In this document: in pieces, positions 7,251 through 12,206 of the stretch
Layout of the letters: each line of letters opens with the position of its first letter
Position numbering within the stretch: the stretch's first letter is position 1
DNA from: an uncultured Gammaproteobacteria bacterium
GTDB lineage: Bacteria > Pseudomonadota > Gammaproteobacteria > CAMYKB01
DNA: 64,000 bases
Assembly: GCA_947258875.1 (NCBI GenBank)
Contig: CAMYKB010000007.1
Coordinates: forward strand, 1 to 64,000
Direction of reading: 5' to 3'
Position numbers and translations under genes: made by a program
The notes under the pieces: model-generated
What the model saw: only the letters and a program-made list of their open reading frames with translations
Database searches by the model: none
What the model was told of the DNA's origin: nothing

Positions 7251-7742
7251 ATGCGGCACATTATCTCTATTTTGCTCGAAAATGAGGCTGGCGCGCTGAC
7301 CCGCGTTTCCGGGCTGTTTTCATCGCGTGGTTACAATATCGAATCTCTGACCGTTGCGCCCACCGACGATCCCACCCTGTCGAGGATGACGGTGGTGACG
7401 CGTGGCAGTGATGAGGTGATTGAACAGATCACCCAGCAGCTGAATAAGTTGGTGGACGTGGTCAAAGTTGTTGATCTTACCTGTGATGAGCACATAGAGC
7501 GTGAGTTAATGTTGCTCAAGGTGGAAGCCGGGGGCGAAGATCAGGATGAGATCGTGCGGCTTGCGGAGCTCTTTAATGGACGCATTGTTGATACCTGCGA
7601 TACGGCGTGCACGATAGAGATGACGGATACCGGTGACAGGATAGATGAATTCATAAAAACCCTCGGCGCGAGGAAGCTCCTTGAAGTGGTCCGTTCTGGT
7701 GCCACGGGTATTGCGCGGGGTACCACCAGCCTCAAGCTTTGA
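7251..7742 (+). CDS. ilvN: Acetolactate synthase small (regulatory) subunit
   Basis: A 163-residue regulatory subunit of acetohydroxyacid synthase, the first common enzyme of valine, leucine and isoleucine synthesis. The N-terminal ACT domain begins RHIISILLENEAGALTRVSGLF and continues to about residue 80, binding valine for feedback control; the C-terminal half matches the IlvH/IlvN extension (ELMLLKV, ending GTTSLKL). The length is typical of IlvH (about 163). It is followed 108 bases later by ilvC on the same strand. The usual catalytic partner ilvB/ilvI is missing upstream, so it must lie elsewhere in the genome. Confidence 0.93.
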   Translation: MRHIISILLENEAGALTRVSGLFSSRGYNIESLTVAPTDDPTLSRMTVVTRGSDEVIEQITQQLNKLVDVVKVVDLTCDEHIERELMLLKVEAGGEDQDEIVRLAELFNGRIVDTCDTACTIEMTDTGDRIDEFIKTLGARKLLEVVRSGATGIARGTTSLKL

Positions 7743-7775: not shown

Positions 7776-8867
<1,092 letters not shown>

Positions 8868-8940: not shown

Positions 8941-9546
8941 ATGCTCGCGAAGGAGGCACGCACCAACATATATGCAGCGGCTCTTGGCGTTGCGGTGCTG
9001 ACCTATTTTATTGGTGTGTGGGCCATTCCGTTGTGGTTAATTGTGGCGGTGTTCGCATTTACCTGGCGCAGCTTTCCGCGTGTGGTGCCCTCCATTCCCC
9101 TGGCGAACGTCAGCCCTGTAGACGGCGGCGTAATCGCAGTGGAACATACTCATGATCCTTATCTGAAGCGTGATGCACTCAGGGTCACTGTAAGGCAGTG
9201 GCGTTTGGGGGAGTTCAGTGTATACAGTCCGATTGAGGGTAAGCTGATTGAGCGCTGGTTTGCTGCAAAAGGTGACACCATGGGGGGGCCTTTATTCGCC
9301 ATGCATATTCGTACTGATGAAGACGATGATGTGGTGGTTGCATTCAGCATAGCCAGTCGTTTTCGCTATATGCGCATGCGCCGCTATTCAGGCGAGCGTG
9401 TCGGTCAGGGCAGGCGCATCGGATTTTTTGGTTTCGGCTGCTCGGTGGATGTTTACCTGCCAGCCAGTTCGCGTGCGAACGTGGCACCGGGTCAGCGTGT
9501 CCGTGGCGGTAGTGATGTTATCGGCACTTTTATTCACCCAGGCTGA
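8941..9546 (+). CDS. Phosphatidylserine decarboxylase-like protein, catalytic residues altered
   Basis: A 201-residue protein with two N-terminal membrane segments (about 8-50) and a PSD fold. The ANVSPVDGGVI, SPIEGKL, IASRF and GRRIGFFGFG segments align with short (class II) phosphatidylserine decarboxylases. In those enzymes the loop reads FGS-x-VD, where Ser becomes the pyruvoyl cofactor; here it reads FGCSVD, with Cys at that place. The usual VHVNRSP histidine loop is FSVYSPI here, so the His is also missing. It sits directly before pssA (25 bases), which makes the PSD substrate. It could be an inactive homologue, a Cys-processed enzyme, or have a new role in phospholipid metabolism. Confidence 0.65.
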   Translation: MLAKEARTNIYAAALGVAVLTYFIGVWAIPLWLIVAVFAFTWRSFPRVVPSIPLANVSPVDGGVIAVEHTHDPYLKRDALRVTVRQWRLGEFSVYSPIEGKLIERWFAAKGDTMGGPLFAMHIRTDEDDDVVVAFSIASRFRYMRMRRYSGERVGQGRRIGFFGFGCSVDVYLPASSRANVAPGQRVRGGSDVIGTFIHPG

Positions 9547-9570: not shown

Positions 9571-10353
9571 ATGAGTGAAGAAGAACAGAAATCACGGCGC
9601 GGTATATACCTGCTACCGAATCTACTGACCACAGGTGCCCTGTTCGCGGGCTTCTATGCCATCGTAGCAGCCATGGAGCAACATTTCGAAGCGGCTGCCA
9701 TCGCCGTATTTGTTGCCATGTTTCTGGATGGCCTGGATGGGCGTGTAGCGCGCCTGACCAACACTTCCAGCGCCTTTGGTGGCGAATACGATTCGTTGTC
9801 AGATATGGTTTCCTTCGGTCTGGCGCCGGCGCTGGTGATGTATGAATGGGCGCTGGGCGATCTCAAGACCCTAGGCTGGTTCTGGGCCAAATTAGGCTGG
9901 CTGGCGGCGTTCTTCTATGCAGCGTGCGCAGCACTGCGGTTGGCGCGCTTCAATACTATGAGCGGCTCGACAGACAAGCGCTACTTCCAGGGGCTACCGA
10001 GTCCATCGGCCGCCGCGCTGATGATGGGAATGATCTGGATGTGGCACGATCTCGAATTTTCGGGCGCTGAACTTAAACTGCCGGCATTACTTGTCACGGT
10101 GATCAGTGGTGCGCTGATGGTCAGTAACGTGAGTTACTACAGTTTTAAGGAGATTGACCTTCGCAACAAAATCCCATTTGTCGCAATGCTGGCTATTGTG
10201 ATCGGCTTGATGCTGGCCTCCATTGATCCACCCAAGGTACTATTTGGCGGGTTTGCGGTCTACGCTGCTTCGGGGCCTATGACCAGTATCATCCGCTGGC
10301 GACGCAAGCGGGCAGCGCGCCATGCCAGCAAGGAAGAACAGGAATCCGGGTGA
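9571..10353 (+). CDS. pssA: CDP-diacylglycerol-serine O-phosphatidyltransferase
   Basis: A 260-residue integral membrane enzyme making phosphatidylserine from CDP-diacylglycerol and serine. The CDP-alcohol phosphotransferase signature is complete: DGLDGRVAR, then a Gly and DSLSD (about residues 53-76), including all the conserved aspartates. About seven membrane segments follow, and the C-terminus is Arg/Lys-rich. It lies 24 bases after the PSD-like gene, so the two are probably translated from the same message. The length and topology fit the bacterial type II PssA. Confidence 0.92.
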   Translation: MSEEEQKSRRGIYLLPNLLTTGALFAGFYAIVAAMEQHFEAAAIAVFVAMFLDGLDGRVARLTNTSSAFGGEYDSLSDMVSFGLAPALVMYEWALGDLKTLGWFWAKLGWLAAFFYAACAALRLARFNTMSGSTDKRYFQGLPSPSAAALMMGMIWMWHDLEFSGAELKLPALLVTVISGALMVSNVSYYSFKEIDLRNKIPFVAMLAIVIGLMLASIDPPKVLFGGFAVYAASGPMTSIIRWRRKRAARHASKEEQESG

Positions 10354-10655: not shown

Positions 10656-12206
10656 ATGAACGCGACAGAAAAACTCATTATTTTTGACACCACCTTGCGT
10701 GATGGCGAACAGAGCCCGGGCGCATCCATGACCAAAGACGAGAAGGTGCGCATTGCCAAGTCCCTGGAACGCATGCGTGTGGACGTCATCGAAGCAGGCT
10801 TTCCGATTGCCAGCCCGGGAGATTTTGAATCGGTGCAGGCGGTGGCCCGCAGCATTAAAGACAGTACGGTATGTGGCCTGGCGCGCGCACTGGACAAAGA
10901 TATCGACCGCGCCGGTGAGGCTCTGAAGCCGGCGAAATCGGGTCGTATTCATACTTTTATAGCCACTTCGCCCATCCACATGCAGGCGAAATTGCGCATG
11001 CAACCGGAGCAGGTACTGGAACAGGCGGTTAGAGCGGTCAAGCGCGCACGTGAGTATACCGATAATGTTGAATTTTCACCCGAGGATGCGGGGCGTTCCG
11101 AAATCGATTTTCTGTGCCGAATTATAGAAGCAGTGATCGACGCGGGTGCGAATACAATTAATATCCCGGATACTGTGGGTTACAACATTCCGCAGCAATT
11201 CGGCGAATTGATCCGGCAATTGATAGAGCGCGTGCCGAATTCAGACAAGGCTGTATTTTCCGTCCATTGCCATAACGACCTCGGATTGGCCGTGTCCAAT
11301 TCATTGGCTTCTGTATTGAATGGCGCCCGGCAGGTGGAGTGCACCATTAACGGTCTGGGCGAACGCGCCGGGAATGCATCGCTCGAGGAAGTTGTCATGG
11401 CGGTGCGTACACGACAAGATTTCTTCACCTGCGATACCACGCTCGATACCACACAAATCGTACCCTGCTCGCGCTTGGTTGCCGGAATCACTGGTTTCCC
11501 GGTGCAGCCCAACAAGGCCATAGTCGGTGCCAATGCCTTCGCGCATGAATCCGGTATTCATCAGGACGGCGTACTCAAGTCGCGCGAGACCTACGAAATC
11601 ATGCGTGCACAGGATGTGGGCTGGTCCGATAATCGTATGGTGCTTGGCAAGCACTCCGGTCGCAATGCTTTTCGTAGCCGCGCGCAAGAGCTTGGCGTCG
11701 AGTTTGCTTCGGAAGAAGATTTGAACGAGACGTTTTCACGATTCAAGGACCTGGCCGACAAGAAGCATGAAATCTTTGATGAGGATATACAGGCGCTGAT
11801 AACTGAAACAGGCTTTTCTGCTGAGAATGAACACTACAAGTTGGTGTCGCTCAAAGTCTGTTCTGAAACCGGTGAAACCCCGAATGCGTCTATCACGCTG
11901 CTGGCGGATGGTGCAGAAAAACATGGCAGTGCCAGCGGTGGTGGTCCTGTCGATGCCGCATTCAAGGCCATTGAGATGATCGCTGAAAGTAACGCGCAGT
12001 TACAGCTTTATTCGGTGAACAACATCACCAGCGGTACGGATTCTCAAGGCGAGGTCACTGTGCGCCTGGAAAAGGCAGGGCGTATTGTCAACGGACAAGG
12101 TGCCGATACCGACATCGTAATTGCCTCGGCCAATGCCTATGTCAATGCACTCAACAAACTGATTACCCCCGCGCGGCGTGCTCATCCGCAACTGGGCGAC
12201 GTGTGA
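10656..12206 (+). CDS. leuA: 2-isopropylmalate synthase
   Basis: A 516-residue LeuA catalysing the first committed step of leucine synthesis, condensing acetyl-CoA with 2-oxoisovalerate. The TIM-barrel starts with [16 protein letters not shown] (about 9-24), metal-binding HCHNDLG is near 205 and the [13 protein letters not shown] signature near 230. The C-terminal regulatory domain (from about 395) contains the leucine-feedback region. The start at 10656 has AGGAG 6 bases upstream; the frame opens 16 codons earlier. With ilvN and ilvC it forms a branched-chain amino acid block, interrupted by the two phospholipid genes. Confidence 0.95.

Follow-up and report, generated by a model that had tools for sequence, protein, structure and literature searches.

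A phosphatidylserine decarboxylase-like gene preceding pssA belongs to a clade predicted to lack decarboxylase activity

The psdL locus and its product

The window analysed here is the whole stretch of 64,000 nucleotides, in which a gene for a protein resembling phosphatidylserine decarboxylase (PSD), named psdL in this analysis, was found within the order ilvH-ilvC-psdL-pssA-leuA, with UDG-rimI-prfC following after leuA. The open reading frames of this neighbourhood were the following:

7251..7742, forward strand: ilvH, acetolactate synthase small subunit (163 aa), upstream, a conserved neighbour in most orthologous loci
7848..8867, forward strand: ilvC, ketol-acid reductoisomerase, the conserved upstream neighbour
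8941..9546, forward strand: psdL, predicted PSD-like pseudoenzyme (201 aa), intact, with a PF02666 match and membership of the pseudoenzyme clade
9571..10353, forward strand: pssA, phosphatidylserine synthase of the CDP-alcohol-transferase type (260 aa), with relatives in 269 of 281 genomes of the class
10656..12206, forward strand: leuA, 2-isopropylmalate synthase, downstream

The psdL frame starts with ATG, is open throughout and ends 24 bases before the start of pssA (9571), and the placement between ilvC and leuA, directly before pssA, that had been described in an earlier note on this DNA was confirmed from the open reading frames of the window. Its product matched PF02666 with 43.5 bits (Pfam cut-off 22) and scored 95 bits on NF003680, for which NCBIfam sets a cut-off of 262, so that the equivalog threshold was not reached; every other NCBIfam equivalog cut-off was also far above its score. 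An active beta-proteobacterial short PSD obtained 379 bits on NF003680, while the other members of the clade apparently also remain below the cut-off, judging from a best E-value of 2e-50. Moreover, the profile-profile comparison with active short PSDs (hhalign) extended over 208 columns and the whole length of the protein (E 4e-55). At the sequence level the homology to short PSDs is certain, as the earlier note had proposed for this intact gene. Within the psdL product, the following positions were located:

8968..9069, forward strand: hydrophobic N-terminal segment (residues about 10-43), likely a membrane anchor, from hydropathy and a low-confidence model
9121..9123, forward strand: Asp61 within SPVDG, kept from the ancestral Asp-His-Ser set and found as Asp in 91% of the pseudoenzyme representatives
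9214..9216, forward strand: Phe92, replacing the catalytic His (His144 of E. coli Psd; PMC7952604) in the alignments
9268..9300, forward strand: shortened segment at the site of the FxNAxxDKASxENERN motif of active PSDs, from the alignments
9439..9441, forward strand: Cys167 at the former pyruvoyl Ser, unconserved in the family alignment

As residues 165-170 read FGCSVD, with Gly-Cys at the cleavage site, Cys167 occupies the position of the pyruvoyl Ser, and the alignment of EFSVYSPIEG with VHSNRSPVDG of the active beta-proteobacterial short PSD indicates that the catalytic His has become Phe92, both in agreement with what had been noticed before. The KASxENERN segment, which is shortened and unrecognisable in psdL and unconserved in the clade, had been missed at that time. 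In E. coli Psd, Ser254 is needed for cleavage and His144 for decarboxylation (PMC7952604), which supports the predicted inactivity of psdL. The ancestral parts still present are Asp61 and the hydrophobic N terminus, where hydropathy averaged over 19 residues reached 2.2 in psdL and exceeded 1.6 in 94 of 101 homologues; a structure model of low confidence (pLDDT 45), whose input was a three-row alignment of the window protein and two relatives, placed helices at residues 2-24 and 26-44. Overall, psdL resembles the short (type II) PSDs (PRK05305/NF003680) in its whole-length homology, its N terminus, Asp61 and its genomic slot, whereas it differs from them in the missing His, Gly-Ser site and KASxENERN motif, in its score below the cut-off and in a set of newly invariant residues.

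Catalytic positions and spread of the family

With a profile built from the first 14 homologues, 281 genomes of the same class were searched, and 95 of them had matches. Orthologues of psdL, taken as pseudoenzymes, were present in 79 genomes, nearly all of them at the X position of ilvC-X-pssA-leuA. The catalytic His was absent from 80 of the 101 family sequences, being replaced by Tyr in 47 and by Phe in 22, and the pyruvoyl position in these 80 sequences was occupied by Gly (21), Arg (20), Ala (16), Ser (11), Cys (4), Lys (2), Gln (2), and Asp, Leu, Thr or Val (one each). A total of 82 pseudoenzymes was thereby defined, consisting of the 80 sequences without His and two with His but without Ser; three of the 82 (G001, G033 and G038) came from an earlier search for relatives, leaving 79 in the 281-genome sample. 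The two exceptions (L091 in G164 and L095 in G174) have His at the old catalytic position and FPAF where Ser is gone, and the sister of G174 has Arg.

The four Cys cases were the window protein, two species of one genus (G044 and G160) and G103, whose sister G197 has Gly. Cys is thus not invariant among the homologues of the ilvC-pssA slot, and the earlier suggestion of a Cys-based PSD, in which Cys167 would act as the nucleophile of self-cleavage and give rise to a pyruvoyl or equivalent group, was not upheld. The motif FGCSVD does lie exactly at the cleavage site, and the Ser254Cys mutant of E. coli Psd reportedly keeps a little activity, which was counted in favour of this reading. However, close relatives have Gly, Arg or Leu at the position, His and the NERN motif are also lost, and a normal psd is present in the same genome; furthermore, decarboxylation is abolished when His144 of E. 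coli Psd is mutated (PMC7952604). Since the pyruvoyl position is unconstrained in the family, the Cys is best regarded as incidental, and a Cys-based decarboxylase is highly improbable. On these alignments psdL is a member of a family-wide pseudoenzyme and not a one-off: homologues of the same slot were inspected for a uniform presence of the normal Ser and His, which was not what they had, and a single local mutation in the window was ruled out, as the predicted loss of catalysis extends to the whole clade.

Among individual loci, three open frames of 568-577 aa (L103, L105 and L110) were read from their coordinates as probable run-on frames overlapping ilvC rather than as fusions. In G160 the profile match (L094, 5064-5600) spans two in-frame TAA codons near the N terminus and TTG is the first codon of the frame that remains, which suggests possible decay of this copy.

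In the maximum-likelihood tree, the 82 pseudoenzymes were placed on one side of a single branch and 15 active short PSDs on the other (SH-aLRT 100). The active short PSDs of the class sit in the same ilvC-pssA slot, from which it follows that the slot is ancestral. The tree and the synteny show the psdL clade, as far as sequences can tell, to be the single-origin descendants of a short PSD ancestrally encoded between ilvC and pssA, with the catalytic residues lost. In the search of the phylum, the best 29 loci besides the window all retained the catalytic His, and all but one had FGSRVD, so within the phylum sample searched the clade appears to be confined to this class. No relative was found in the viral contigs searched, and the plasmids searched gave nothing beyond two weak matches in Neisseria records of chromosome size.

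Phosphatidylserine decarboxylation by a type-I enzyme

The earlier note had offered, as its other option, that phosphatidylserine (PS) is decarboxylated elsewhere in the cell and that the homologue has another role. A full E. coli-type psd was indeed found in the window's own genome, on the same contig (70086-70739) at about 61 kb from psdL, with YHRVH, NER and MGST intact and a TIGR00163 score of 255.7 bits (cut-off 111.75). This type-I protein belongs to the same superfamily (PF02666) as psdL and occurs with it in one genome, but the similarity is distant and, unlike psdL, it is intact and likely the active Psd. Furthermore, of the 79 pseudoenzyme genomes 75 had a type-I psd, against none of the 15 whose slot holds an active short PSD, a pattern that does not amount to 79 independent observations because the pseudoenzymes form one clade. 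The type-I call was made by eye from the PF02666 results of each genome, a strong match being one with a best E of about 1e-48 or lower, and the 15 genomes with an active short PSD had the short protein only, with one PF02666 match (1e-33 to 1e-47). The type-I proteins fetched from pseudoenzyme genomes had YHRxH, NER and [ML]GST in all cases (48 of 48). From these motifs and the distribution of the genes, PS decarboxylation in these genomes is shown to be assignable to the E. coli-type psd encoded elsewhere, and this option of the earlier note is supported by the intact type-I gene and by the membership of psdL in a clade that is under selection although its catalysis is, by sequence, lost.

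Four pseudoenzyme genomes, all of them draft assemblies with an estimated completeness of 95-98%, yielded no type-I psd, relaxed protein search included (G164, G184, G202 and G259, with psdL loci L091, L105, L101 and L103, respectively). Two of them, G184 and G259, belong to one genus, so that PS decarboxylase may really be absent there, or else its gene may fall in an assembly gap.

The coexistence of both genes in 75 of 79 genomes would suit a role as partner to the active type-I Psd, whose gene lies elsewhere, by analogy with the prozyme of trypanosomes, a dead paralogue that activates the pyruvoyl enzyme AdoMetDC (PMC5201418). The likeness to that precedent is conceptual: in both cases a dead relative of a pyruvoyl enzyme is kept by selection, although psdL belongs to another family and pathway. 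Nevertheless, almost all genomes of the class carry type-I psd, with or without the pseudoenzyme, and the assemblies of the four genomes above show the pseudoenzyme without a type-I psd. Type-I Psd and the pseudoenzyme also lacked any residual covariation in rate (partial r 0.02-0.10), although the type-I gene is not linked to psdL and linkage confounds the test. Such a partnership with Psd was considered improbable.

Selection, linkage to pssA and a proposed role

Close pseudoenzyme pairs with unsaturated synonymous change gave pairwise dN/dS values of 0.11-0.26. Constraint was then compared between 58 pseudoenzyme representatives (<60% identity) and 12 active representatives, and the old active-site columns (H, N, NERN and IRFGSRVD) were released in the former, while other columns were gained:

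9235..9237, forward strand: Glu99, newly invariant (100% of the 58 representatives), variable in active short PSDs
9316..9327, forward strand: Asp126-Glu127-x-Asp129, a new, near-invariant acidic turn (100%, 100% and 97% of the 58)
9397..9411, forward strand: Arg153-x-Gly155-Gln156-Gly157, a new, near-invariant motif (100%, 98%, 95% and 100%), of which Gly157 is common to pseudoenzymes and active PSDs
9535..9537, forward strand: His199, newly conserved near the C terminus (83%)

Other gained columns were L54 (93%) and C160 (76%), and the window protein carries all the gained residues except the latter, with Ile160 in its place. By these comparisons psdL is shown to be kept under what reads as purifying selection and to have acquired near-invariant residues that are new, and the earlier view that the gene is under selection holds. 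A decaying, functionless relic that persists by chance or as a spacer in the operon would agree with the slot being empty in many genomes of the class and with the roughly 15 presence/absence changes of psdL needed on a poorly supported PssA tree. However, a relic would shed constraint rather than gain it, and given the dN/dS values, the gained residues and the reading frames that remain intact across a divergent clade, this explanation is largely refuted and very unlikely.

The gain of several near-invariant polar residues together (E99, D126, E127, D129, R153, Q156 and H199) resembles a functional site, and these acidic, Arg, Gln and His residues might form an active or metal site in a PSD fold, with new chemistry on a lipid head-group or membrane substrate. 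In contrast, none of the catalytic motifs of other known families was recognised, and Pfam and NCBIfam matches beyond the PSD models were at chance level. A new enzyme is therefore an unlikely reading, albeit less so than a partner of Psd.

Regarding the neighbouring gene, pssA lies directly downstream of the pseudoenzyme gene in most loci, and the linkage is kept where ilvC is gone or has moved off, in G160 (L094), G202 (L101) and G087 (L140), while in one genus (G070 and G174; L098 and L095) psdL stays after ilvC with pssA on another contig. As the ilvC-pssA synteny is ancestral, it argues only weakly for a partnership with PssA. In 20 inspected genomes without a family match, no relative was found beside pssA; most of them had ilvC and pssA as close neighbours with the slot empty, and some had no ilvC or leuA nearby. 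The occurrence of this PssA type in 269 of the 281 genomes, together with the empty slots, indicates that PssA does not generally depend on the pseudoenzyme. Moreover, the rate covariation of psdL with pssA was significant (partial r 0.55-0.60), but that with leuA, which belongs to another pathway, was equal (0.58), so it is explained by linkage and was not used as support.

That psdL lacks PSD catalysis is, on its sequence, very probable, and the gene probably has a new, non-decarboxylase job in membrane-lipid synthesis. The most likely form of this job, taken tentatively, is a non-catalytic one, in which the protein, anchored in the membrane, would bind lipid and serve PssA as a partner or regulator, a reading preferred for the proximity of the two genes, the likely membrane anchoring and the ancestral substrate. 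The N-terminal segment would anchor psdL in the inner membrane, the PSD fold would be retained, and neither self-cleavage nor a pyruvoyl group would be expected. The protein could then bind PS and/or PssA, putatively through E99, D126-E127-x-D129, R153-x-GQG and H199, and so tune or stabilise the PssA encoded immediately downstream. The PssA-partner mechanism taken by itself is doubtful, and the whole account, pseudoenzyme and PssA/PS partner together, is given a probability of about 0.38. A broader course of events, in which a short PSD displaced by the type-I enzyme gave rise to an undescribed clade of proteins that have a conserved site of their own and are either new enzymes or dedicated to phospholipid synthesis as its regulators or partners, falls slightly short of an even chance.

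No description of PSD pseudoenzymes or of the ilvC-pssA clade was found in the literature searched, an absence that is no proof of novelty, and the psdL clade is filed here within the PSD superfamily as a branch of pseudoenzymes. Pyruvoyl decarboxylases with dead relatives are already known from trypanosomes. About 28% of the sampled genomes of the class carry a gene labelled by Pfam as phosphatidylserine decarboxylase that by sequence should not be one, and it may be counted as an active PSD in automated annotation and in reconstructions of lipid pathways. If regulation of PssA or PS binding were true, psdL would be a control point at the PS/PE branch of bacterial phospholipid synthesis, and the clade would be a natural instance of a displaced pyruvoyl enzyme that became a pseudoenzyme.

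Finally, some loci depart from the common arrangement. One genome (G250, family f66) has neither a PSD-like gene nor this type of pssA and keeps type-I psd, a possible joint loss of the former two. In G145 (L122, 4989-5615), psdL stands alone at the ancestral spot before UDG-rimI-prfC, with ilvC, pssA and leuA gone, and the best pssA match in that genome is weak (E 1.7e-20). In L098, psdL is followed downstream by a SPOR-domain (DedD-like) gene, cvpA and purF.
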